Shown here piece by piece: positions 6,643 to 33,267 of a DNA stretch of 64,000 nt. The translations under genes and the position numbers were made by a program. A model generated the notes under the pieces. It saw only the letters and a program-made list of their open reading frames with translations, was not told where the DNA came from and did no database searches. This DNA comes from a virus: the IMG/VR virus record IMGVR_UViG_3300025872_000040, positions 53,823-117,822 of that record; one strand, 5' to 3'. The stretch's first letter is position 1, and each line of letters starts with the position of its first letter.

Positions 6643-8157
6643 ATGGATCTGTTCGGCTTTAAGATTGTTAAGAAGAGCGACGAGGAGAAGCAACCTCTGT
6701 CGTTCGCACCGCCCGTCGAGGACGACGGCGCGGTAGTCGTCGCTGCCGGTGGCTACTACGGTACGTACGTAGACCTCGAAGGTACGACGAAGAATGAGAA
6801 CGACCTGATCACCCGCTACCGCGAGATGTCGCTTCAGCCGGAGTGTGAGAGCGCGATCGACGACATCGTCAACGACGCCATCATAACTGACGAGGACGAG
6901 ATAGTCACGATCAACCTAGACACCGTCGAGGTCCCTGAGAACATCAAGGAGATCATCAAAGACGAGTTTGACGAGATCAAGAAACTTCTCAACTTTGACA
7001 GCACTGCGTACGAGTTGTTCAAGCGTTGGTACATCGACGGTCGGTTGAACTATCACATACTGATAGATCCTGACAACCCGATGGACGGAATCAAGGAGCT
7101 CAGGTACCTTGACCCAAGAAAGATTAAGAAGATCAGACAGGTAGAGGCGAAGCGCAAGGGCGCGGCCACTATGAAGAAGGTCAAGGAAGAGTTCTACATC
7201 TACAACGACAGGGGCTTTGGCAAGGGTTCCGTGGCTCTTACTCAAGGTGACCACAGCAGCACTCAGGGTCTCAGGATCGCCAGAGACTCGATACTAAGCG
7301 TTACTTCGGGCCTCACAGACCAGAACAACATGGTCGTACTGTCGTACCTACATAAGGCGATCAAGCCGCTCAACCAGCTCAGGACCCTAGAGGACGCGAC
7401 GGTCATCTACAGGATGTCTCGAGCTCCGGAGCGCAGGATATTCTACATCGACGTCGGTAACCTTCCTAAGATGAAGGCCGAGCAGTATCTTCGTGACATG
7501 ATGGTCAAGCACAAGAACCGACTGATCTACGACGCCAGCACCGGTGAGATCAGGGACGATCGTAAGTTCATGACCATGATGGAGGACTACTGGCTCCCTC
7601 GTCGCGACGGCAACAGGGGAACCGAGATCCAGACTCTTCCAGGCGGGCAGAACCTAGGTGAGCTCGAGGACGTTAAGTACTTCAGAAAGAAGCTTTACAA
7701 CGCCCTCAACGTTCCAGTTAGTCGTCTTGAGACTGAGACTGGGTTCAACATGGGTAGGACCAGCGAGATCTCTCGAGACGAGGTGAAGTTCACCAAGTTC
7801 ATCTCTAGGCTGAGAAAGAGGTTCTCGATCCTGTTCCTTAAGGCTCTCGAAAAGCAGCTAATCCTTAAGAACGTGATCACTCCAGAGGACTGGCCGGATC
7901 TGCAGTACAAGATCGGCTTTGACTTCGCTAACGACAACTTCTTCGGCGAGCTCAAAGACAACGACATCCTCAAGGAGAGAATCGCGATCGCCGATGGGAT
8001 ACAGACCTACATCGGAAAGTACTTCTCGAACGAGTGGGTCAGGAAGAACGTGTTCAAGCAGACTGACGAGGACATCAAGAACGAGGACGCTCTGATAAAG
8101 CAAGAAACTCCCGAGATGACCCCTCTGCCTCCAGGCACGCCGCCTCAGACAGAGTAA
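6643..8157 (+). CDS. 20: Portal vertex protein gp20
   Basis: A 504-residue portal protein in the T4 gp20 position. It shows the recognisable family blocks (ITRYREMSLQPECESAIDDIV near residue 55; LPGGQNLGELEDVKYFRKKLYNALNVP around 335-360). Dodecamers form the ring at the head vertex used for head initiation, DNA entry and neck attachment. T4 gp20 is 524 aa. The C-terminus is Pro/Thr-rich. Start at the first ATG after the stem-loop, with a weak AGGA-type ribosome site. Confidence 0.96.
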   Translation: MDLFGFKIVKKSDEEKQPLSFAPPVEDDGAVVVAAGGYYGTYVDLEGTTKNENDLITRYREMSLQPECESAIDDIVNDAIITDEDEIVTINLDTVEVPENIKEIIKDEFDEIKKLLNFDSTAYELFKRWYIDGRLNYHILIDPDNPMDGIKELRYLDPRKIKKIRQVEAKRKGAATMKKVKEEFYIYNDRGFGKGSVALTQGDHSSTQGLRIARDSILSVTSGLTDQNNMVVLSYLHKAIKPLNQLRTLEDATVIYRMSRAPERRIFYIDVGNLPKMKAEQYLRDMMVKHKNRLIYDASTGEIRDDRKFMTMMEDYWLPRRDGNRGTEIQTLPGGQNLGELEDVKYFRKKLYNALNVPVSRLETETGFNMGRTSEISRDEVKFTKFISRLRKRFSILFLKALEKQLILKNVITPEDWPDLQYKIGFDFANDNFFGELKDNDILKERIAIADGIQTYIGKYFSNEWVRKNVFKQTDEDIKNEDALIKQETPEMTPLPPGTPPQTE

Positions 8158-14055: not shown

Positions 14056-14132
14056 TGGTGCCCGCGGTAGGACTCGAACCTACACTTAGGAGGGTTTAAA
14101 GCTCTTGCCTCTGCCGGTTGGGCTACGCGGGC
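14056..14132 (-). tRNA. tRNA, anticodon UAA by geometry (Leu-type), short variable arm
   Basis: Acceptor GCCCGCG/CGCGGGC with A73 and encoded CCA; T arm GTAGG-TTCGAGT-CCTAC. Counting back from the T arm with a 5-base variable loop gives anticodon TAA (reads UUA, Leu). The anticodon stem has three good pairs with mismatches at both ends. A Leu tRNA should have a long variable arm, so identity is uncertain; a shift of one base would give TTA, an ochre-suppressor anticodon. Confidence 0.7.
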
Positions 14133-19514: not shown

Positions 19515-21227
19515 ATGATCTTATTTAAGAAGATAAGGTGGAAGAACTTTCTTTCCACCGGAAACACGTTTACTGAGGTTGACTTTAACGCGTCTAACCT
19601 CACTCTCATAGTTGGAGACAACGGGGCAGGGAAGTCGACCATCCTCGACGCTCTCTGCTTCTCGCTGTTTAACAAGCCGTTCAGAAAGATCAACAAGCCT
19701 CAGCTGATAAACACAATCAACGGTAAAGACGCCGTAGTCGAGATCGAGTTCTCCGTAGGAAAGAAGAACTACAAGATTGTGCGCGGCTTGAAGCCGAACA
19801 CTTTTGAGATCTATCTAGACGGAGCTATGGTCAATCAGGACGCAGACAAGCGCGACTATCAAGACGTGCTTGAGAAGCAGATCTTGAAGCTTAACTTCAA
19901 GTCTTTCTGTCAGGTAGTGATCCTAGGATCGGCGTCGTTCGTTCCGTTCATGCAGCTTCCGACCGGCTCTAGACGAGAGATCATCGAGGACCTTCTCGAC
20001 CTTCAGATATTCTCTCAGATGAACTCGGTGCTCAAGAAGAAGATAACTGAGAACAACGAGAAGATCATCAGACAAGACTCTAGCAAGGACGGTCTCGAGC
20101 GCCTTATCGATGTCTCTAAGGAGCACATCAAGAAGATGCAAGAGAGCAACGAGAAGCTAGTGCAAGAGAAGTTGGATAGAATAGAGCAGACAGACAAAGA
20201 GATACAGAAGTACTCGTCGATCTACCATGACGTCGAAGAAGAGATCCAGTCTCTAGAGGTCGGACTTGACGAGGAGTACTCTCTATCAAAGAAAGCCAGC
20301 AAGCTGGAGTCGCTCAGACACCAGATAGAAGCACGTGTAAAGATCATCAGCGGTGACCTCGAGTTCTTTACTAACAACGATGAGTGTCCAACCTGCAAGC
20401 AGCTCATCCTAGAGACACACAAGGCTGCCATGGTCGGGGAGAAGAGCGAGAAGCTAGTTGAGCTCAACGACGGTATCTCTAAGCTCGCTCTTGAGTACGA
20501 CGAGACCAAGAAGCGCTTCGAAGAAGTTCTTAAGGTGAAGACCGCAGTCAACTCCAAGAAGATGGAGCTTCACAAGCATATGACGCAGGTTAACTCTCTC
20601 TTGAACTACAAGGAGATGCTCGAGAGGGAGATAAAGCAGACCGCGTCAGCCGACAACGTAGAGGACGAGCTCAAGAAGATTGAGCAGCTACAGTCTGATC
20701 TTGACGAGGCGGTCAGAGCTTATAACGAGCTGGTAGAGGACGGTAAGGTATTCAACGTGGCGGCTGCGCTGATGCGAGACGACGGTATCAAGGCCAGGAT
20801 CATTCGTCAGTACGTACCGATAATAAATAAGTTCATCAATAAGTATTTAGCTGCTATGGACTTCTTCGTCAACTTTGAATTGGATGAGAACTTCAATGAG
20901 ACTATCAAGTCACGCTTTAGAGACGAGTTCTCTTACGCATCTTTCTCTGAGGGCGAGAAGATGCGCATTAATCTGGCTATCCTCTTTACATGGCGCGCGA
21001 TCAGTAAGCTTCGAAACAGCGCTTCTACTAACCTTCTTATTATGGATGAAGTACTCGACGGCTCTCTTGACAGCAATGGCACGGATGAGTTTCTAAAGAT
21101 CTTAGCCGGTCTAGTGACAGACACTAACACCTACGTCATCAGTCATAAGACCGACCAGCTCTACGATAAGTTTACTAATGTCTTAAAGTTTGAGAAGCAT
21201 AAGAACTTCTCGAGGATTGCCACGTGA
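19515..21227 (+). CDS. 46: Recombination nuclease subunit gp46 (Rad50-like)
   Basis: A 570-residue SMC-type ATPase. Walker A GDNGAGKST at residues 34-42, two coiled-coil arms around a zinc hook CPTC near 292, ABC signature SFSEGEKMR near 477, Walker B LLIMDEVLD near 508. It forms the ATP-driven clamp of the gp46/47 end-resection nuclease. Three bases after gp47; overlaps the first PP-loop gene by four bases. Confidence 0.96.
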   Translation: MILFKKIRWKNFLSTGNTFTEVDFNASNLTLIVGDNGAGKSTILDALCFSLFNKPFRKINKPQLINTINGKDAVVEIEFSVGKKNYKIVRGLKPNTFEIYLDGAMVNQDADKRDYQDVLEKQILKLNFKSFCQVVILGSASFVPFMQLPTGSRREIIEDLLDLQIFSQMNSVLKKKITENNEKIIRQDSSKDGLERLIDVSKEHIKKMQESNEKLVQEKLDRIEQTDKEIQKYSSIYHDVEEEIQSLEVGLDEEYSLSKKASKLESLRHQIEARVKIISGDLEFFTNNDECPTCKQLILETHKAAMVGEKSEKLVELNDGISKLALEYDETKKRFEEVLKVKTAVNSKKMELHKHMTQVNSLLNYKEMLEREIKQTASADNVEDELKKIEQLQSDLDEAVRAYNELVEDGKVFNVAAALMRDDGIKARIIRQYVPIINKFINKYLAAMDFFVNFELDENFNETIKSRFRDEFSYASFSEGEKMRINLAILFTWRAISKLRNSASTNLLIMDEVLDGSLDSNGTDEFLKILAGLVTDTNTYVISHKTDQLYDKFTNVLKFEKHKNFSRIAT

Positions 21228-22303
21228 GTGAAGAACCTGGACTAGTTCTATTTACTAGTAAGAAGCTCAATATAACTGACATAGGACTTCCTCTATGGAT
21301 ACCTCGCAAGTATCCGTGGGAGAGAAGTGTCAATAGAATAAACCATGAACTCGGTAAGATCACCGACGCGTTCAACTACACAATATCTTGTGAGACTATA
21401 GAAGAGATCCTTAGGGACGAGCCTCAGAACAACAAGACTTTCGAGGAGCAAGCGTTCTCTACAGCCCTTGACATCAAGAGAAAGACGGGAGACTCTAGGG
21501 TCTATCTCATGTACAGTGGAGGCATAGACAGCACTTCTGCTCTAGTGTCTTTCATGGAGACGTGGGGCGACGACCTAGAGAGACTTCACATAGCGATGTC
21601 GTATAGGTCGATCGACGAGTTTCCAGAGATGTGGCCTCTCATAAACTCTAAGTTCAAGGGAAGAATACATAACTCCTTAGCTGACACTGAGGAGTACTAC
21701 AAGAGAGGATACGTCGTGACTGGAGAGCATGGAGACCAGATCTTTGGGAGCGACGTATTGTTTAAGGTGGTCGATACTTACGGAGAAGCCGGTATCCACA
21801 TGAAGTGGAAGAATAACATAGACATGGTGTATCGTCGTATGTTTGGGATCCCATTTGCTCCGCACATATCCGACTTCATCGACAGACACTGCCAAGGAAT
21901 AAAGCACTCTCCAGTTCCTATAAGATCGTGCTACGACTGGGTTTGGTGGTTTAACTTTGTAAACAAGTGGCAGTTCGTCAAATATAGACTTCTTGCTACT
22001 AAGCAACACAGCGATGCTAAGTTACACTTTAGCAAGATCATAAACTTCTATGATACACCATCTTGGCAGAGGTGGAGTATGGACAACCATCACCTTAAGA
22101 TCAAGGGTACGATGTTGTCTTATAAATATGCAGCGAAGAAGTTTATTGTAGACAAGACTGGCTTCATAGACTACATTAATAAGCCTAAGGTCGGAAGCCT
22201 TCAGTACGTCAAGTCTAACTTTATGTCTCCAGACGGCATAGATACTAATCTAGATATAATGCCTCTTGAGAGATGCTTGGAGTTCGTTAACAATGATCAA
22301 TGA
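21224..22303 (+). CDS. Asparagine-synthetase-like PP-loop ATPase, first copy
   Basis: A 359-residue protein with a PP-loop SGGIDS at residues 98-103. A second motif TGEHGDQIFGSD lies near 165-176, matching the SG-GADELFGGY block of asparagine synthetase B domains. It lacks an N-terminal Cys2 glutaminase domain, so it would use free ammonia, an amine or another nucleophile after adenylating a carboxylate. It is clearly paralogous to the protein at 23488 (shared DWVWWFNFVNKWQ / DWVWWFGFTNKWQ and FYDTPSWQRWSMDNH / FFDTPEWQKWSLDNH). Substrate unknown. ATGA-coupled to gp46. Confidence 0.75.
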   Translation: MSEEPGLVLFTSKKLNITDIGLPLWIPRKYPWERSVNRINHELGKITDAFNYTISCETIEEILRDEPQNNKTFEEQAFSTALDIKRKTGDSRVYLMYSGGIDSTSALVSFMETWGDDLERLHIAMSYRSIDEFPEMWPLINSKFKGRIHNSLADTEEYYKRGYVVTGEHGDQIFGSDVLFKVVDTYGEAGIHMKWKNNIDMVYRRMFGIPFAPHISDFIDRHCQGIKHSPVPIRSCYDWVWWFNFVNKWQFVKYRLLATKQHSDAKLHFSKIINFYDTPSWQRWSMDNHHLKIKGTMLSYKYAAKKFIVDKTGFIDYINKPKVGSLQYVKSNFMSPDGIDTNLDIMPLERCLEFVNNDQ

Positions 22304-22877
22304 GTATGTGGTCTACGTTGGGCATGACAATAGAATAGTTCACGCCGCGCACAACACTTCTATCTATGTTCCAATAGTATACGAGAAGATTCTGTACTAC
22401 TACATGGACTCTTTACCTCCCACAATGGACATATACGACTACTCCGTCATAAAGAAAGACGGAAAGAACACCTATATGAAGAGACTCGACATTACTGATC
22501 ATATTCTAAAGGTGACTGAGAGTCAGAGAAACATAATTCGTATACTTGAAGACATGAATGACTTCTCTCGCTTCTACATGAGGGCGTACGAGACTAACTA
22601 CGTGTCAAGGTACATGAACTTCTTTCTCTATGAAGAGATAGATGAGTATAAGAAGACTGGAGTAGTAGGTCCAATCTTAACATCGCTTAAAGACATTGAT
22701 GACAGTTATAGCATTGACGATGTCGTAGATCGTGAGTCGATGAAGAGACAAGACGTGAAAAACATGTTATCTTATCTTAACTCTGTAGAAGCTAAGGTAC
22801 GAAAACTAATTAAGAAAGAAAAGTATGATGAGGCCTCGTTCTTCATCACCAAGGAGAGAGGTAAGACGAGATGGTAA
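22293..22877 (+). CDS. Unknown protein of the PP-loop cassette, A
   Basis: A 194-residue protein if started at 22293 (MINEYVVYVG), preferred because it overlaps the upstream stop by 11 bases and has GGAG 12 bases before it. The longer frame from 22266 adds nine residues. Helical and Tyr/Asp-rich. It shares a block with the next protein: DEYKKTGVVGPIL here, GEYEKSGKISPLL there, and a C-terminal KVRKLIKKEKY / TVKKLIKKKKF. I do not recognise a domain. Expressed between the two PP-loop enzymes, so probably a partner or substrate-binding component. Confidence 0.65.
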   Translation: MINEYVVYVGHDNRIVHAAHNTSIYVPIVYEKILYYYMDSLPPTMDIYDYSVIKKDGKNTYMKRLDITDHILKVTESQRNIIRILEDMNDFSRFYMRAYETNYVSRYMNFFLYEEIDEYKKTGVVGPILTSLKDIDDSYSIDDVVDRESMKRQDVKNMLSYLNSVEAKVRKLIKKEKYDEASFFITKERGKTRW

Positions 22878-23488
22878 GTGAATCGGACTCTTTCTATGGT
22901 GTGTTGATATACGCAGATACCGGCTCAAAGAAAAGAATCATTCGCGTAGTTCCTATGGAATATAGGAAAGCCAAGGTCTTAATGACCGGTGTGGCGACAT
23001 ACGTCTATCTTGGTGAGATAAGTCGCGACTGCATGGAGAACCCAAGTTACTACACCTATGACGTGCGAGAAGGATTGAAGTACGTAGGAGGTCCAATAGA
23101 TGAGACGACCGAACAGAGACTGGTGTTGAAGAAGATCATGATTAGCTATCTAGAGAAGCTTGAGAACGTCAAGCACATGTATAAAAGCGCGTTCATACGA
23201 CCGATCATCGATGAGGACATTTACGACGCCCTCATCATATACGACGTCGGAGAGTACGAGAAGAGTGGTAAGATAAGCCCTCTCCTCCAGTCAATGTACA
23301 AGGAGAACAAAAAGTTCACCAACATGGACGTATACGTCGGCTTCATAAAGCAGCGCTATGAGGATCTGAACTACCAGATGGCGTATCTCTATAAGTTTGA
23401 GAGAACGGTAAAAAAGCTTATCAAGAAGAAGAAGTTCTCTCTCGCTAACCAGCTATTGAACGCAGAGTTCGAGAAAAGAATGCTCTGA
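22871..23488 (+). CDS. Unknown protein of the PP-loop cassette, B
   Basis: A 205-residue protein, paralogous in its C-terminal half to the preceding one (shared E-Y-x-K-x-G-x-x-x-P-[LI]-L and x-V-x-K-L-I-K-K-[EK]-K-[YF]). The N-terminal part is beta-like (FYGVLIYADTGSKKRIIRVVP). It overlaps both neighbours by a few bases, so all four genes are translationally coupled. No known family recognised. The alternation enzyme-A-B-enzyme suggests duplication of an ancestral enzyme/partner pair with inversion of order, or a heteromeric complex. Confidence 0.65.
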   Translation: MVSESDSFYGVLIYADTGSKKRIIRVVPMEYRKAKVLMTGVATYVYLGEISRDCMENPSYYTYDVREGLKYVGGPIDETTEQRLVLKKIMISYLEKLENVKHMYKSAFIRPIIDEDIYDALIIYDVGEYEKSGKISPLLQSMYKENKKFTNMDVYVGFIKQRYEDLNYQMAYLYKFERTVKKLIKKKKFSLANQLLNAEFEKRML

Positions 23489-24525
23489 TGGGGATCATCC
23501 TCTACACTTATCCGTTCAAAGATAAGACTCTCAGGTTCGAGAGACCATGGTGTCCTACCGTGTATCCGTACACGCAGTCAGTGAACCGCGTCCGAACTGG
23601 TCTAGATCCGTTCGAGTACACTAACCTGTGCGAGAGCATAGTAGAGATCAAGAGCCTACCCCAGTCGAAGAAGACGTTCTCAGAGATGTGCTTTGAGACA
23701 GCCGACCGCTTAAACAAGACCATTGACAAAAAAATGTACTTGTACTATAGTGGTGGAATGGACAGCGCCGCTGCTCTTCTTTCATTTAGAAAGATGATGT
23801 CAAAACAAGACCTTGAGAAGCTCTATATCGTGGCTTCTCACCATAGCATGCTAGAGTTTCCAGAGTTGTGGACTGAGATACACTATCAGTTTGCTGGTAG
23901 GATCATCAGTTCGTATGCTAATATGGAAGACTTGGCGACCGATGGTGTAGTTATAACGGGTCAACACGCAGACCATCTTCTTGGGTCCGATAACATCAGG
24001 AGAGTGTATAACACGCACGGAAACGAAGGAATAACTATGCCGTGGAGAGACGCGATGCTCCCCATATATACGGCTCAGTTCGGTGCAGAGACCGCTAGAA
24101 ATTTCATTGATGTGTACGGAGAGACTACGTGTGAGTGCCCTTTCCCGATAGTCACTGCATTTGACTGGGTGTGGTGGTTCGGCTTCACTAATAAGTGGCA
24201 GCATGCCAGATACAAGTTTCTAGGTTATAAGCCATGGAAGAATCCAAAGAAAACATATAAGAACGTCGTTCACTTCTTTGACACACCAGAGTGGCAGAAG
24301 TGGAGCCTGGACAATCACGACTTGAAAGTAGTGACTAACATAAAAGACTACAAGCACACGATACGCTCTTTTGTAATAGACGAGAGTGGTCATAAGTCAT
24401 ACGTAAAAAAGAAGAAAGAATCTAGTCTTAGAATGCTCTGGTATAACAAAGAGTTTTGCTATGGTGTGGCAGATGACTTTAGCGAGCTTACCAAGTATCA
24501 AAGCCTAGAGTTCATAGGTAGGTGA
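23488..24525 (+). CDS. Asparagine-synthetase-like PP-loop ATPase, second copy
   Basis: A 345-residue paralogue of the 21224 protein. PP-loop SGGMDS at 88-93; second motif TGQHADHLLGSD near 157-168, in which the acidic pair of the asparagine synthetase motif is only partly kept. The shared Trp-rich block DWVWWFGFTNKWQ lies near 225. Again no glutaminase domain. Possible roles: amide or peptide ligation, or activation of a nucleotide or sugar acid. Whether both copies are active is unknown. Followed 4 bases later by a cupin. Confidence 0.75.
   Translation: MGIILYTYPFKDKTLRFERPWCPTVYPYTQSVNRVRTGLDPFEYTNLCESIVEIKSLPQSKKTFSEMCFETADRLNKTIDKKMYLYYSGGMDSAAALLSFRKMMSKQDLEKLYIVASHHSMLEFPELWTEIHYQFAGRIISSYANMEDLATDGVVITGQHADHLLGSDNIRRVYNTHGNEGITMPWRDAMLPIYTAQFGAETARNFIDVYGETTCECPFPIVTAFDWVWWFGFTNKWQHARYKFLGYKPWKNPKKTYKNVVHFFDTPEWQKWSLDNHDLKVVTNIKDYKHTIRSFVIDESGHKSYVKKKKESSLRMLWYNKEFCYGVADDFSELTKYQSLEFIGR
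23723..23751 (+). promoter_or_regulatory. Intragenic promoter in second PP-loop gene
   Basis: TTGACA, 17 bases, TATAGT, in an A-rich patch; could drive the cupin and genes after it. Confidence 0.4.
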
Positions 24526-24529
24526 AAAG

Positions 24530-25207
24530 ATGATTATTAAAACCGGAAAGACAAACGAGAGAATCGACCTTACGCATACCATGTACCCATGTGTGGCCTA
24601 TATGGTTCGCGGTGAACTTCAGTCGTTCGAGCATAAGCACTCGACCGTCTACGGGTTTACGACTAAAGGTGCGAGGATATGCCTCACTGATGAGAGTCGT
24701 GACTTCGAAGAGATCGTACTTAAGAAGAATAGTTACTTCTGTATTCCAGTTCGTGGAAACGACGTGACTATCGAGAGCGACGAGTGCTTCGCTGTGTTTA
24801 AGCTAGGCTTCAATGGAATGGAGGCGTACGGTCGCCACCGGGACGAGCTAGGTCGTCTGTCTTACATCGACGGATGCTCTGACTCGCTTCTAGCGTTTCC
24901 ACCTCGTCTTGGAGACCCGTCACTCAACTACCTCTACTTTCCACCGGGCATCGACCAGTCGTTCCATACTCATCCGAGCATCCGAATCGGCTGTGTCATT
25001 CAGGGTTCTGGTAAGTCGAGTCTTCGTGACAAAGAGATCGACCTGGTTCCAGGAGTCATGTTTGCTCTTGAAGAGAAAGAGCTTCATCGGTTCAGAACTT
25101 CTGCCTCTGGAGATGTCATGAAGATCATAGCTTTCCATCCAGATGGAGACTGGGGTCCTACAGATGAAAACCACACTATGCTTAACAGGACTTATATAGC
25201 GAAGTAA
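24530..25207 (+). CDS. Cupin-domain protein
   Basis: A 225-residue protein with a C-terminal cupin: PPGIDQSFHTHPSIRIG, then G-SGKS, VPGVMFALEEKELHRF, with metal-ligand candidates His-x-His, a later Glu and a later His. The N-terminal half looks like a second, degenerate beta-barrel (YMVRGELQSFEHKHSTVYGFTT), so this may be a bicupin. Cupins bind small metabolites or act as metal enzymes. Lying four bases after the PP-loop genes, it probably belongs to the same pathway. Substrate unknown. Confidence 0.7.
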   Translation: MIIKTGKTNERIDLTHTMYPCVAYMVRGELQSFEHKHSTVYGFTTKGARICLTDESRDFEEIVLKKNSYFCIPVRGNDVTIESDECFAVFKLGFNGMEAYGRHRDELGRLSYIDGCSDSLLAFPPRLGDPSLNYLYFPPGIDQSFHTHPSIRIGCVIQGSGKSSLRDKEIDLVPGVMFALEEKELHRFRTSASGDVMKIIAFHPDGDWGPTDENHTMLNRTYIAK

Positions 25208-27627: not shown

Positions 27628-28323
27628 ATGACCCTTTCCATTCAGCGCATCCGTTCTATCTTCCGGTTCATGCACGAGTCAGAAGACTACGTTATTGATA
27701 AGACTGGCGCTAAGATGATCGAGATCGTCAACGCTAGTTTCATCGCTGATGAAACTTCTATCTTTGGCACTGTCAATGAGAACTACGTCCAGCGAGAGCT
27801 CGAGTGGTACCGATCTCTCTCGCGTAACGTCAATGACATTCCCGGTGGTCCTCCTACTATCTGGAAAGAGGTAGCTGACAGTCGCGGCTTCATCAACTCT
27901 AACTACGGTTGGTGTATCTGGTCTGATGCTAATGGTCGTCAGTACAATCGGGTTCTAGAAGAGCTTCGAAAGAACCCGTACTCACGGCGAGCGGTGATGA
28001 TCTACACGCGTCCTAGCATGTGGAACGACTACAATAAGGACGGAATGTCCGACTTTATGTGCACCAACGCGGTTCAGTATCTCATCCGCAATGGTAAGCT
28101 CAATGCCGTCGTTCAGATGCGATCTAACGATGCTGTCTTTGGCTACAAGAATGACTATGCCTGGCAACAGTACGTGCTCTCTCATCTAGCTAGAGAGCTT
28201 GACGTCGAGCCCGGAACTATCTATTGGAACGCAGGGAGCTTGCACGTATATGAGCGACACTTCAAGCTGGTCGTGGACTCAGAAGTATCTAAATCTAGCG
28301 AAGCACATTTCCAGCTGGTCTAA
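27628..28323 (+). CDS. Thymidylate-synthase-fold enzyme, probably dCMP hydroxymethylase
   Basis: A 231-residue member of the thymidylate synthase family. Catalytic Cys145 (SDFMCTNAVQYL), phosphate-binding Arg-Ser at 165-166 (QMRSND), and the C-terminal NAGSLHVYERHF block (TS: GDxHxYxNH). Asp176 (KNDYAW) lies 31 residues after the Cys. This is the spacing of C146-N177 in E. coli TS and C148-D179 in T4 gp42. Asn there selects dUMP and Asp selects dCMP, so this is probably a dCMP hydroxymethylase making 5-hydroxymethyl-dCMP with folate. T4 gp42 is 246 aa. Overlaps the deaminase gene by 74 bases. Confidence 0.8.
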   Translation: MTLSIQRIRSIFRFMHESEDYVIDKTGAKMIEIVNASFIADETSIFGTVNENYVQRELEWYRSLSRNVNDIPGGPPTIWKEVADSRGFINSNYGWCIWSDANGRQYNRVLEELRKNPYSRRAVMIYTRPSMWNDYNKDGMSDFMCTNAVQYLIRNGKLNAVVQMRSNDAVFGYKNDYAWQQYVLSHLARELDVEPGTIYWNAGSLHVYERHFKLVVDSEVSKSSEAHFQLV

Positions 28324-28792: not shown

Positions 28793-29096
28793 CCAGTCCA
28801 TCAAGAGACTCTGTAAGTGGACTGAGTCTCTCGGCTTAACTTTCTTCTCTTTCGTAAACTGTATCTCGCGACCAGGACCCTACCGAGAGTCCGACGTCGA
28901 CTACGAGATGCTGCAAGAGTGTGTGAAAGGCTATAAGAAAGTAATAGCTCTTGGAAACTTTCCGTCGATGGCTCTCTCGAAGATCGAAGTCGAGCACTTC
29001 ATGCTGCCTCATCCGTCTGGGCTAAATAGAAAGTTAAATGACAAGTCTTACGAGACAAAGATTCTGGAGGAGTGCCGTGAGTACATCGAGGCTTAA
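28722..29096 (+). CDS. Uracil-DNA-glycosylase-superfamily-like protein
   Basis: A ~124-residue protein from ATG 28722 (alternatives 28698, 28704, 28713; AAGG lies upstream). Two motifs match the UDG superfamily: GINPSGSDP near the N-terminus (motif A of TDG/Mug type is GINPG) and HPSGLNRKLND near residue 95 (motif B, NPSGLN/HPSPLS). It is shorter than most UDGs. It could remove uracil or another base analogue, or be a binding remnant. The neighbourhood of pyrimidine-modifying genes supports a base-excision role. Reads into the epimerase gene by 20 bases. Confidence 0.6.
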   Translation: MTRSEKRVLIVGINPSGSDPTRVSQSIKRLCKWTESLGLTFFSFVNCISRPGPYRESDVDYEMLQECVKGYKKVIALGNFPSMALSKIEVEHFMLPHPSGLNRKLNDKSYETKILEECREYIEA

Positions 29097-29976
29097 AGTT
29101 CTAATCACTGGCGTGCAAGGTTACATTGGTTCGACTCTCGCTCGTGAGATTCATCTTAATCACAAAGACAATATATGTGTGCATGGAACTGACCTAGTCG
29201 AGTCGGTTAACCAGAGTCAACAGTATGTTGAGAAGTACTTCAAGGCTGATGTCAGAAATGACTGGTCTCTTACTATGGCCAGTCTGCCGGAGTATGACTG
29301 CGTGGTGCACTTGGCTGGACTCATCTCAGTCGCCGAGTCAACGAATAAACCGACCGAGTATACTTTAACAAACGTCAATGGCACAATCAACGTGCTCGAG
29401 TGGTTCAACCCTAGAAACTTTATCTTTGCCTCAACGGCCGGAGCGTTTGATCCTATCAATCCATATGCCCAAACAAAGATCTTAGCTGAGAGCATCATTC
29501 GTCAGTATGCTCATGAGTACACCATCTTTCGCTTCTTTAACGTTGCTGGATCTGACGGTGTAAATCGACAGATTGGTGACTCGACTCATCTAGTTCGCAT
29601 CGCCGCCGAGACCGCCGCCGGAAAGTGGAACAGTATGGACCTCTATGGTACTGACTATGATACTTCGGACGGAACATGTATCCGCGACTACATTCACGTA
29701 TCAGATCTAGTTGACAGTATTGTTAAAGCAATTTACAATCCAAAGAATACTAAATATGAGTGTCTCGGTAACGGTAAAGGGTACACCAATCGAGAAGTCA
29801 TAAACATGATGAAGAAAGTAAGTGGTCAGGACTTTGAGGTGGTAGAACGTGGACGACGAACCGGTGATCCGGCGTTTCTAGCTCTAAGACCAAATGAGGT
29901 CAGTTCTCTTGTAGAGAGCAAATATACACTAGAAGACATGTGCAGAAGCGCTTATCTTATTGCGGAGTCAGAATGA
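29077..29976 (+). CDS. UDP-sugar 4-epimerase (GalE-like)
   Basis: A 299-residue short-chain dehydrogenase/reductase. The GTG start at 29077 has a strong GGAGG six bases before it; upstream in-frame codons are out-of-frame readings of the neighbour. Rossmann motif ITGVQGYIGS, catalytic NPYAQTK (YxxxK), RFFNVAG, and the GalE signature YGTDYDTSDGTCIRDYIHVSDL. Probably interconverts UDP-glucose and UDP-galactose (or UDP-xylose and UDP-arabinose). The nearby UDP-galactopyranose mutase suggests its product feeds a furanose donor. Confidence 0.88.
   Translation: MSTSRLKVLITGVQGYIGSTLAREIHLNHKDNICVHGTDLVESVNQSQQYVEKYFKADVRNDWSLTMASLPEYDCVVHLAGLISVAESTNKPTEYTLTNVNGTINVLEWFNPRNFIFASTAGAFDPINPYAQTKILAESIIRQYAHEYTIFRFFNVAGSDGVNRQIGDSTHLVRIAAETAAGKWNSMDLYGTDYDTSDGTCIRDYIHVSDLVDSIVKAIYNPKNTKYECLGNGKGYTNREVINMMKKVSGQDFEVVERGRRTGDPAFLALRPNEVSSLVESKYTLEDMCRSAYLIAESE
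29711..29739 (+). promoter_or_regulatory. Intragenic promoter in epimerase gene
   Basis: TTGACA, 17 bases, TACAAT, about 235 bases before the glycosyltransferase-like gene. Confidence 0.4.
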
Positions 29977-31073
29977 AAAAGATCCTTATAACTGGAATGA
30001 ACGCTGCTCAGTGCAAGAAAGATTACTTCTTGCAGCAGGAACTTCAGGTAGTTCCGTCTCACTACGCTCTTATCCGAGTGCTGGAAGATATGGGATACCA
30101 AGTCGAGCAACGACCTATCTTACTTGGCGAGGATCTCTCTGGATACGACGAGGTCATCGTTTACATGCACAGCATCCAAGCTTTTTGTCAGCGTCTCTTC
30201 GGCGGTCTATATGCCATGGGCGCGCGACAAGACTGTATCTTAGCCTTTGACGACTGGCAGGTAGACCAGATCTATACCAGCTTTAGAAACTACATGGACG
30301 ACCTTCGTGACGATCCTCAGAAGGCGTATCGCGAGTATCTGCTCGAGCTCTATCAGGGCAAGGAGTCTCTTGAAGACATCAAGAAGTACCACGACGTGTA
30401 CGTTCAAGGTTGTGAGCTAGTCCTTCGCAAAAACAGTCGTCTGCTCGTGTCGGCTTTCGCCGGAGGAGACCTGTCGCTTCTGAAGCTACAGTGGAACGAG
30501 AACAAGGTGTTCCAGTTCAACCCTAACCCGTACCATCTCAACCGTCGACCGGACAACAATTACGGCGAGCCTGGATCTATTCTTTCTTTTGCCGGCAACA
30601 ACGACGTCAACCCTGCCTCTAAGCTGAGAGTCTGGAACTTCGCGTCGCTCGTTCAGAAGAAGACTCAGAAGTGGCTCAAGCAGCAGAACATCAACAAGTG
30701 GGACATCAACTTCTACGGCGCTCGGCGCGGCGAGGAAGTAAAGCAGCAGCGTCTCACCGAGTCTGAGATGTGCCGAGTCTATAACTCTCAGTGGGGCTGC
30801 TTGATGCCGGGCTACTTTCACTCTGGGTCCGGTTGGTGGCGAGCTCGGCCTCTTCAGGTAGCCGACGCCGGATCTATCCTCGTGTGCGACGATCGTGAGG
30901 GTTCAGTCTACGGCGAGGCCTACACCGGTCTTACTGCCGACAAGGTGGAAGGCATGACGCTGGAGGATCTTATCAAGACCGCGCGCTATCAGAAAGAGTG
31001 CTTGTACGAGAAGCACCCTCTGACTAAGGCAGTCACCAAGATGGAGATTAGTGCCATCCTGGAGTCTAAGTGA
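29973..31073 (+). CDS. GT-B-like glycosyltransferase, candidate DNA glycosyltransferase
   Basis: A 366-residue protein from the ATG overlapping the epimerase stop. Its layout resembles T4 beta-glucosyltransferase (351 aa): N-terminal MKKILITGMNAA strand-loop, IRVLEDMGYQV, a DEVIVYMHS strand, and in the C-terminal half INFYGARRGEE, then SGSGWWRARPLQVADAGSILVCDD, followed by an acidic segment and a final helix. T4 BGT has a similar late TLRVWE-MASDAVMLIDE segment. I infer a sugar-nucleotide transferase, possibly onto hydroxymethylcytosine. Similarity is by eye and weak. Confidence 0.55.
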   Translation: MKKILITGMNAAQCKKDYFLQQELQVVPSHYALIRVLEDMGYQVEQRPILLGEDLSGYDEVIVYMHSIQAFCQRLFGGLYAMGARQDCILAFDDWQVDQIYTSFRNYMDDLRDDPQKAYREYLLELYQGKESLEDIKKYHDVYVQGCELVLRKNSRLLVSAFAGGDLSLLKLQWNENKVFQFNPNPYHLNRRPDNNYGEPGSILSFAGNNDVNPASKLRVWNFASLVQKKTQKWLKQQNINKWDINFYGARRGEEVKQQRLTESEMCRVYNSQWGCLMPGYFHSGSGWWRARPLQVADAGSILVCDDREGSVYGEAYTGLTADKVEGMTLEDLIKTARYQKECLYEKHPLTKAVTKMEISAILESK

Positions 31074-32068
31074 TGGCTAAGTATCTCGTAGTTGGAGCTG
31101 GTCTCTCGGGTGCTACCATCGCCCGAGAGCTTGCTGATGCCGGTCACACGGTAATAGTGATAGACTCTCGAACTCATATCGCCGGTAACGCGTACGATGA
31201 GACCAACGAGTACGGTATTAGGGTACACAAGTACGGACCCCATCTATTTCATACTAACAACGAGAAAGTATTTGAGTATCTTAGTCGCTTTACAGAGTGG
31301 GTCGAGTATGACCACCGCGTAAAGGCTCTTCTTGAAGACGGACGCTACGTAACTTTTCCTCCTAACAAAGAGACCAAGGAGATCGTTGGAGCAGAAAACG
31401 TAGTAGATACCTTCTATCGGCCGTACACCAAGAAGATGTGGGGAAAGGAGCTTGAGGAAGTCGCTCCAAAGATATTAGACCGCGTTCCCGGTCGCGACGA
31501 CATGGAGGACAGATACTTTCCTAATGACAAGTACTGCTTCATGCCCGTAGAAGGGTACACTAAGATGGTCGAAAACATGCTAGATCATCAAAACATTAGA
31601 GTCTGGCTAGCATACCCATTTAAGAAGCACATGGAAGACTCGTATGATCACGTGTTCAACAGCATGGCGATCGACGAGTACTACGGCTATCAGTTTGGTG
31701 AGCTCGAGTATCGATCAATCAAGTTTCACACTACGACTGCACCTATTCCTAAAGCTCTTCCAGCTACTACAGTCAACTTTACTAACGACGGTCCACTTAC
31801 GCGAGTGACCGAATGGAAGAACCTGCCGCGTCACGGAAACAACCCGTACTTCACGACTCTTACTGCGGAAGAACCGTGCGACTATAAAGATAACAACTAC
31901 GAGCGATACTATCCTATCTCTGATGATATAAATAAGGACAGGTACGCCAAGTACGCATCTATCAAGAACGATAAAGTTACGTTCATCGGCCGCTGCGGGC
32001 AGTACGTCTACATTGATATGCACCAGGCGGTCAACTCCGCCCTTAGAATCGCGATGGATTACAAGTGA
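31073..32068 (+). CDS. glf: UDP-galactopyranose mutase
   Basis: A 331-residue FAD enzyme. N-terminal dinucleotide motif GAGLSGATIAREL, then HIAGNAYDE, KYGPHLFHTNN, YTKKMWGKE, and C-terminal FIGRCGQYVYIDM: all diagnostic of Glf. Converts UDP-galactopyranose to UDP-galactofuranose (some relatives also act on UDP-arabinopyranose). Shorter than bacterial Glf (~370 aa) but the motifs are complete. Start at ATG 31073 (TGATG overlap). A Glf inside a phage DNA-modification block is unusual and suggests a furanosyl donor. Confidence 0.93.
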   Translation: MAKYLVVGAGLSGATIARELADAGHTVIVIDSRTHIAGNAYDETNEYGIRVHKYGPHLFHTNNEKVFEYLSRFTEWVEYDHRVKALLEDGRYVTFPPNKETKEIVGAENVVDTFYRPYTKKMWGKELEEVAPKILDRVPGRDDMEDRYFPNDKYCFMPVEGYTKMVENMLDHQNIRVWLAYPFKKHMEDSYDHVFNSMAIDEYYGYQFGELEYRSIKFHTTTAPIPKALPATTVNFTNDGPLTRVTEWKNLPRHGNNPYFTTLTAEEPCDYKDNNYERYYPISDDINKDRYAKYASIKNDKVTFIGRCGQYVYIDMHQAVNSALRIAMDYK

Positions 32069-33267
32069 CCTTCACACACGCATCAATCGTTCCCCTCATC
32101 GGCGGCGAGACTCTCGGCACCGAGCAAGCCTTCGGTCGCCCTCCCGAGTACCTTATGTCGTACGAGCCTTTCTGGGCAAACGACCGACACCTCGTCAACC
32201 ACTACCGCGGCGAGATTCCCTACTACGTTCTAGACAAGAACGAGAAGCCAGACAAGAAGGTCGACGTCATCGGGTCAGTCTGCCCGTGCGCTGGCCTCAG
32301 CATGCTTTCTCACGGCTACGGCGACGACAACGCTAACAACCGGTGGATGATCGAGACGGCTAAGTTCGTTCTCGGTGAGATGAAACCTAAGGTGTTCTGG
32401 GGCGAGAACGCTCCGGGCTTCGCCGGCAAGGTGGGTAAGAACATCCGAACCCAGATGTACAACATCGGTCGAGAGAACGGGTACACGTTCACGGTGTATA
32501 GAACCAAGTCTCTCTTCCACGGCGTGCCTCAGATCCGAGAGAGGTCGTTCTACTTCTTCTGGCAGTCTGACAAGACTCCCAAGCTGAACTACTACAACAC
32601 CCCACACAAGAGCATCGAGCAGACCATCCTAGACGCTCGAGGCAACACGCTGCAGGAGCCGATCAACAAGAAGACCCCGTCACAGGATCCATACTACCGC
32701 TACATCCTAGAGCACATCAACGGCGGAATGACTCACCGCGAGTTCTCAGCTCAGGTCGAGCCTTCTCGGGCCAGAGGGAACGACACGTTCTCTTACATCG
32801 AGAAGCAGGGGATCACCTACGACAAGGTCTCTGAGTGGATGACTGCCAACGGATACGAGCGAGAGGCTGCGAGCTGCATGCGAAAGTACGAGAAGCTTAA
32901 GTCCGGCGGCTCGATCATGCGTCGCGGAACTGTCGTCCCTAAGGACTACATCGGGGCCTTCGTCGGCCACTATCCAGTCTCCCTCACGCATCCGATCGAG
33001 GATCGCTACATTACGTATCGAGAGGGGTTGACAATTATGGGACTTCCTGATACATTTGAACTATTGGATCCTAAGGACAGCGCCAACCACATGTGCCAGA
33101 ACGTACCAGTTCAGACGGCCCGTGACATGGCTACTGAGATTCTAGGTTGGTTGAACGGTGAGCGCGAAGAGTTCAATTCAAACTACGTCTATCAATATAA
33201 TGGAACAAAGACACATGAGTTCGGTGACATACAAGATGGCTCGAGAAAAATCTCCTCCTTCCTATAA
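32065..33267 (+). CDS. DNA cytosine-C5 methyltransferase
   Basis: A 400-residue protein with cytosine-C5 methyltransferase motifs in order: motif I variant PLIGGETLGTEQAFG near residue 10, motif IV CPCAGLS near 73 with the catalytic Cys of the Pro-Cys pair, motif VI WGENAPGF near 112, motif VIII HGVPQIRERSF near 153, motif IX YREGLTIMGLPDTF and motif X NVPVQTARDMATEIL near the end. GTG start overlapping the glf stop. Target site unknown. Odd in a phage that should carry hydroxymethylcytosine; may modify host or early unmodified DNA. Confidence 0.85.
   Translation: MTFTHASIVPLIGGETLGTEQAFGRPPEYLMSYEPFWANDRHLVNHYRGEIPYYVLDKNEKPDKKVDVIGSVCPCAGLSMLSHGYGDDNANNRWMIETAKFVLGEMKPKVFWGENAPGFAGKVGKNIRTQMYNIGRENGYTFTVYRTKSLFHGVPQIRERSFYFFWQSDKTPKLNYYNTPHKSIEQTILDARGNTLQEPINKKTPSQDPYYRYILEHINGGMTHREFSAQVEPSRARGNDTFSYIEKQGITYDKVSEWMTANGYEREAASCMRKYEKLKSGGSIMRRGTVVPKDYIGAFVGHYPVSLTHPIEDRYITYREGLTIMGLPDTFELLDPKDSANHMCQNVPVQTARDMATEILGWLNGEREEFNSNYVYQYNGTKTHEFGDIQDGSRKISSFL
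33028..33056 (+). promoter_or_regulatory. Intragenic promoter in methyltransferase gene
   Basis: TTGACA, 17 bases, TACATT, AT-rich patch near the 3' end of the methyltransferase gene; could drive the DUF3310-like gene, the GT-A gene and gp45. Confidence 0.45.

Follow-up and report, generated by a model that had tools for sequence, protein, structure and literature searches.

A conserved module of an AsnB-like PP-loop enzyme, a dedicated partner and a bicupin in phages and bacteria

What might two asparagine-synthetase-like enzymes, two related small proteins and a cupin make together, and is their association peculiar to one virus? The question arises from a cassette of five coupled open reading frames (ORFs) at positions 21224–25207 of a 64,000-nucleotide stretch, here called the window, which corresponds to bases 53823–117822 of the 117.8-kb virus record IMGVR_UViG_3300025872_000040. 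A preliminary description, made from the letters alone, had proposed a duplicated enzyme/partner module that forms an amide or peptide-like bond, with the cupin acting on the same product. We found that the partner, the PP-loop (PP) enzyme and the bicupin form a conserved module and not a private cassette.

The cassette and the module it belongs to

All five ORFs lie on the forward strand and are present and intact. PP_A, an AsnB-like PP-loop enzyme of 359 amino acids (aa; 21224–22303), starts with GTG and carries the motifs SGGIDS (21515–21532) and TGEHGDQIFGSD (21719–21754). It is followed by partner 1 (194 aa, 22293–22877), of the type found beside PP_A-like enzymes, by its homologue partner 2 (205 aa, 22871–23488), and by PP_B, a second AsnB-like PP-loop enzyme (345 aa, 23488–24525) with the motifs SGGMDS (23749–23766) and TGQHADHLLGSD (23956–23991). 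The last ORF encodes a bicupin of 225 aa (24530–25207), the core third member of the module. PP_A overlaps partner 1 by 11 nucleotides (nt), the two partners overlap by 7 nt and partner 2 and PP_B by 1 nt, and a gap of 4 nt separates PP_B from the cupin. Upstream, Pfam identified Metallophos and SMC_N proteins resembling T4 gp47 and gp46, and the start of PP_A overlaps the stop of the SMC gp46-like gene by 4 nt. The tight coupling described earlier was therefore borne out, as were the enzyme motifs, including the WVWWF and WQ[RK]W stretches; for the inner proteins the KLIKK motif was correct, but the quoted E-Y-K pattern was slightly off and in fact reads EYKKTGVVGPIL in one and EYEKSGKISPLL in the other. 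The G+C content of the cassette (44.4%, against 50.9% for the window) is below that of 98% of equal-sized windows, which is compatible with horizontal acquisition but is no proof of it. A promoter and terminator scan gave signal at chance level.

The relatives, whose loci are labelled here with L and a number, came from scans of IMG/VR with a PP profile (72 relatives), a broader PP scan (443/483 stretches) and a cupin scan (161/167); the partner has no conserved stretch usable for such a scan. When the cupin alone served as an independent query, a PP gene lay at most two genes away in 40 of 53 non-identical cupins, the remaining 13 comprising four at a contig edge and nine without a PP gene; this association exceeds what chance would give. 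Of the non-redundant PP loci, 37 had both flanks; the partner profile matched within 1.5 kb in 32 of them and a cupin was present within 2.5 kb in 24, only three having neither. The cupin was thus co-located with PP genes from both directions of search, in agreement with its earlier assignment to the unit. The partner profile gave 65 matches in PP loci, which extend just 4 kb to each side, and none distant from a PP gene. Among 1034 control ORFs it matched only the two partners of the window and one ORF of Duganella sacchari, which was outside the training set and stands in the order partner-PP-cupin.

Hundreds of IMG/VR contigs carry the same module, and so do bacteria, in which a scan of one prokaryotic genome per species returned 41 loci. 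These include a Xanthomonas albilineans prophage, Lewinella/Neolewinella, Tenacibaculum, Aquimarina, Fulvivirga, Planctomycetes, Verrucomicrobia, Bdellovibrionales, Nomurabacteria (of the candidate phyla radiation), Polynucleobacter, Duganella and others. Gene order varies, being cupin-127 aa-PP in Flavobacteria and about 158 aa-PP-cupin in Lewinella. Copies in so many bacterial groups contradict a phage-specific reading of the cassette. Among sequenced phages, relatives were found in Pseudomonas phage Cygsa01 only, in two copies. Our search of the literature on phages together with asparagine synthetase, cupin, tail fibre or radical S-adenosylmethionine (SAM) proteins found nothing on the module.

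PP_A and PP_B share 39% identity over 351 aa (BLASTP, E=2e-85), and the SGG[ILVM]DS PP-loop is present in both and in 145 of 152 non-identical homologues. Searches of Pfam, NCBIfam, PHROG, PADLOC and PDB with single proteins and alignments matched only the PP-loop stretch, as did a profile from 41 relatives against solved structures. Neither the two enzymes nor the two partners had a credible match in Pfam, PHROG or PADLOC, and they fit no known family. In profile comparison with hhalign, AsnB ranked first (probability 94.9, E=4.5e-8) over 87 columns running from SGGIDS to TGExGDQLFG, with the AsnB block GDGGDELFGG aligned to the TGExGDQxFG of the PP enzymes; TilS (4.9e-7), MnmA, GuaA, NadE, QueC and TtcA followed. 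The PP profile also matched a bona fide AsnB of Neolewinella (E=1.8e-6). The AlphaFold2 model of PP_A has a predicted local distance difference test score (pLDDT) of 92.8, and its long, best-ranked Foldseek alignments were to asparagine synthetase, TsnB9 and carbapenam synthetase, with probabilities of at most 0.97. No glutaminase domain was matched in either enzyme by Pfam, and position 2 is not Cys in either. Judged by profile comparison and predicted structure, the enzymes are AsnB-like in kind, as first described, yet constitute a separate family without glutaminase, because AsnB leads in hhalign and Foldseek favours folds of this type while the proteins remain below the Pfam threshold.

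The two partners resemble each other weakly in pairwise comparison (E=0.001) and are homologous by profile, their subfamilies c18 and c22 aligning over 184 columns (hhalign, E=9.6e-14). The AlphaFold2 model of partner 1 (pLDDT 90.1) comprises five N-terminal strands and five helices. Foldseek found no significant match in the PDB, the weak one to 5yvq_B having a probability of 0.18, and the good matches in BFVD were unnamed phage proteins; the named phage matches, a handful and all weak, were mostly tail-fibre assembly proteins. No significant match to a tail-fibre assembly family was found in Pfam or PHROGs. Profile comparison interlinked the subfamilies c18, c22, c92, c8, c7, Bdellovibrionales, Nomurabacteria and Polynucleobacter, connected the Xanthomonas partner more weakly (E=2.9e-4), and detected no relation between the phage partner and the small PP neighbours in Flavobacteria and Lewinella.

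The bicupin matched Pfam AraC_binding and Cupin_2 above cut-off, the latter with 28.2 bits against 27.2. Its HxH...R pattern is conserved, and H146, H148 and H186, the putative metal ligands, are at least 90% conserved in the alignment. The best match of its profile among PDB sequences was BacB of bacilysin synthesis (E=8.7e-6), aligned over the second cupin half only; BacB and L-ectoine synthase are its nearest solved structures.

Two lineages and a deviant enzyme copy

Close relatives carry one PP gene and one partner gene after the gp46-like gene, mostly with the cupin next, and are either of the c18 type (L006–L008, L027) or of the c22 type (L012–L015, L024). Phylogenetic trees group PP_A with the c18-linked enzymes (99/100, branch 0.48) and PP_B with the c22-linked enzymes (90/99), the latter on a long branch of 1.53. 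Partner 1 groups with the single c18 partner of the L006–L011 relatives (94/92), and partner 2 is nearest to the c22 partner of L012–L015 and L024, again on a long branch (1.9). Because PP_A and partner 1 group separately from PP_B and partner 2, the window seems to hold both versions of the module, two normally single-copy lineages joined back to back around one cupin; the placement of the second set is less sure given its long branches. The duplication originally proposed consequently does not look like a simple duplication in place, since the halves match two different single-copy lineages, more weakly for the second set. Two variations were noted around the cupin of these relatives. In L009 (5786–6484) and L010/L011 its place is taken by a protein that resembles a sulfotransferase by eye and bears a P-loop-like GAPGSKW motif, and in L007 (10366–10845) and many other relatives a peptide-deformylase-like protein directly follows the cupin, where the window has a 63-aa ORF.

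Across 108 non-redundant homologues, R38, the SGG-DS residues, D171, W241, F275, Q282, W284, K301 and K320 are 87–98% conserved. PP_A retains all family-conserved residues. PP_B keeps this same set, including the PP-loop and the C-terminal Lys residues, but the Glu of TGExGDQxFG, 78% conserved in the family, is replaced by Gln159. The two enzymes are therefore not equivalent. Active-site loss in both copies, which the preliminary description had regarded as damaging to its proposal, was not seen: PP_A is intact and PP_B has lost this Glu alone. Intact frames and conserved residues agree with its view of working genes. Pairs of a canonical and a deviant PP enzyme are frequent in loci with several PP genes (L030, L047, L074, L071, L103, L136, L168, L178). 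With its PP-loop kept and its conserved Glu lost, PP_B probably either acts as a second subunit or has an altered specificity.

Proposed chemistry and its alternatives

Alongside the observed homology, intact motifs, conservation and distribution, we infer a module in which a carboxylate-adenylating, amide-forming AsnB-like enzyme works with a partner that presents the substrate and a bicupin that tailors the product, a reading to which we give even chances. PP_A would bind ATP at SGGIDS and adenylate a carboxylate, and an amine would then attack the adenylate to give an amide-type bond. Assistance would come, as in AsnB, from the Glu of TGExGD and from the C-terminal Lys residues, the chemistry being modelled on that of the synthetase half in asparagine, beta-lactam or lasso-peptide synthetases. 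Encoded beside the enzyme, the dedicated partner would present the substrate or couple it to the enzyme, and this substrate would most likely be a peptide or protein. The bicupin could use its metal site to isomerise, cyclise or oxidise the product. The five genes would accordingly represent two juxtaposed versions of partner and PP synthetase served by one shared bicupin.

Several results weigh against this model. The Foldseek matches of PP_A reach TM scores (template modelling) of merely 0.3–0.4, all with E>0.01; the curated cut-off of PF00733 is not reached by the window proteins or the genome, and just 4 of 41 relatives match this family at E<0.1. In profile comparison, TilS follows AsnB closely. 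Training of the partner profile drew in part on PP-gene neighbours, some from the same contigs. The Bacteroidota and Planctomycetes copies stand in an ordinary chromosomal context, with other small neighbours replacing the partner. Tail-type neighbours, considered below, accompany only some one in four of the viral loci, and many modules, that of the window included, are not near tail genes.

Of the alternatives, the one that survives best, unlikely as we consider it, is that the module produces a small molecule in free form, such as a compatible solute, a signal or an antibiotic-like compound, and that phages acquired it for auxiliary metabolism or competition. Stand-alone PP and cupin operons in bacterial chromosomes, some of those in Lewinella beside ABC-transporter-like genes, would suit this explanation, as would the resemblance of the cupin to BacB and L-ectoine synthase and the varied genomic positions in phages. 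However, no further genes for making a precursor accompany the module consistently, the partner does not correspond to any recognised metabolic enzyme, and several phage copies directly follow tail-tip-like genes.

These tail neighbourhoods suggest a more specific form of peptide or protein modification, which we regard as speculative and rather improbable. The module would be a protein-modification machine shared by phages and bacteria, in which the partner, possibly of tail-fibre-chaperone fold, docks the enzyme and the bicupin on surface or tail-tip proteins. An unusual side-chain linkage would be installed beside radical SAM or 2-oxoglutarate (2OG)-Fe hydroxylase steps, in the style of ribosomally synthesised and post-translationally modified peptides (RiPPs), on virion adhesins. 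In L100, L118, L128, L135 and relatives, the module is preceded by a tail-tip-like protein with Cys/Asn-rich repeats and, immediately after this protein, by one of the radical SAM type (PF04055). These tail-tip-like proteins end in NCNCACTYNC... repeats (L100:1653–3518, L135:1580–4147, L118:1381–2811; also L145, L146 and L128) and have the appearance of virion adhesins subject to RiPP-type modification. In the Xanthomonas albilineans-type prophage (L108, L131, L151, L152) the module lies between a poly-Pro or PT-repeat tail-fibre-like gene and a 2OG-Fe(II) oxygenase (PF13640), the partner and PP genes being followed by one for a protein of about 108 aa (L108:3087–5595, L131:963–7375, L151:6371–12783). 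The PP gene also follows tail-tip-like genes in L185, L188 and L189. In the other 54 kb of the virus record, no tail fibre with an odd C-terminus was seen.

It is also doubtful that the second set (partner 2 and PP_B) is decaying baggage beside a working PP_A, partner 1 and cupin, an explanation compatible with the proposed amide-forming module. The long branches and the Glu-to-Gln change in PP_B point in this direction, whereas the intact frames and overlaps, the retained PP-loop and C-terminal Lys residues, and the canonical and deviant pairs elsewhere argue against it.

PP-loop enzymes are often tRNA modifiers, and a TilS-, MnmA- or QueC-like activity on nucleic acids, possibly on phage tRNAs or hydroxymethylated DNA, was therefore weighed; we find it very unlikely. 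TilS ranks second in hhalign, the two Cygsa01 copies (L001:5923–6831 and 7116–8072, beside a Gly-rich protein) are annotated as tRNA 2-thiouridylase MnmA, and the window contains 28 tRNA genes and a thymidylate-synthase-family protein. Yet the second motif is of AsnB type (TGExGDQxFG), the TilS domain PF01171 (ATP_bind_3) has no match above cut-off in the genome, and module-bearing bacteria retain their own TilS. Profile comparison argues against the MnmA name. QueC is among the weakest groups in hhalign, and PADLOC gave no full-length match to QueC or to the QueC-like proteins of Qat and CBASS (just 43 residues, E=0.0031), nor to any model of a known anti-phage defence system. The thymidylate-synthase-family protein (27628–28323, PF00303) has, by eye, Asp at the usual dUMP-binding Asn, which suggests a dCMP hydroxymethylase; its cluster, c56, was seen only in the window and its duplicate contig and not in relatives, for which reason a role in DNA hypermodification was set aside.

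Least weight of all goes to a hydrazine-synthetase-like system, in which the cupin would rearrange an ester or amide produced by an ATP-dependent adenylating domain: an adenylating HUP-class domain is paired with a metal cupin in MetRS-like/cupin systems (PMC2922099; PMC11705231) and Foldseek lists the hydroxyamidotransferase TsnB9, but the adenylating domain here is AsnB-like, not MetRS-like, and no N-hydroxylase gene was recognised in the module neighbourhoods read.

Further features were observed in the window and its relatives. An ARAGORN tRNA on the reverse strand (14056–14132), beside tRNA-Met, has the anticodon TTA and would decode UAA, a stop codon. Genes for sugar-nucleotide and heptose-type biosynthesis were recognised by eye at 29038–33267 and in L246 (14694–17316). 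Solute-binding proteins resembling TRAP, TTT/Bug and ABC types adjoin PP genes in phage contigs (L037:4391–5428, L074:9014–9955, L052:2633–3598, L073:10043–10798). In Duganella sacchari (L172:9684–16941) the module is followed by a convergent ATP-grasp-like gene and a large RHS-repeat gene.

Comparison with known systems

Although uncultivated phages carry the module in hundreds of genomes and it is present in many bacterial phyla, it has no name and no matching Pfam, NCBIfam or PHROG family. Its chemistry is open to testing because some copies belong to bacteria in culture (Duganella sacchari, Tenacibaculum, Neolewinella and the Xanthomonas prophage), and the module may show that the adhesins of phage tails are chemically modified, a side of phage biology that has hardly been explored.

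With the synthetase domain of asparagine synthetase B (PF00733) the module enzyme shares the SGGxDS PP-loop, an aligned second block and a fold match, but it is below cut-off, has no glutaminase and possesses its own Trp-rich C-terminal part, a dedicated partner and a bicupin neighbour. The lasso-peptide cyclase, an AsnB-like C protein that works with B1 and B2, uses a glutaminase-free AsnB-like fold and provides a working analogy. Unlike lasso-peptide systems, however, the module neighbourhood has no recognised precursor peptide, cysteine-protease B2 or PqqD-like RiPP recognition element B1, and the partners did not match lasso-peptide B proteins in Pfam, PDB or Foldseek. The beta-lactam and carbapenam synthetases, AsnB-derived amide-forming enzymes, are among the best Foldseek matches of PP_A (1q19), but with a TM score of about 0.3, and the module lacks further pathway genes. 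MetRS-like and cupin hydrazine synthetases likewise pair a metal cupin with an adenylating enzyme of the HUP class, although their adenylating family differs and no N-hydroxylase was recognised beside the module. BacB is a bicupin and the best PDB sequence match of the cupin profile, but only the second cupin half aligned and its partner genes differ. The tail-fibre assembly chaperones Mu gpU and Tfa have no significant Pfam or PHROGs match to the partner, and the partner in the window lies far from tail genes; nevertheless, the weak Foldseek matches of the partner include several such proteins, and in some prophages it follows tail-fibre-like genes.

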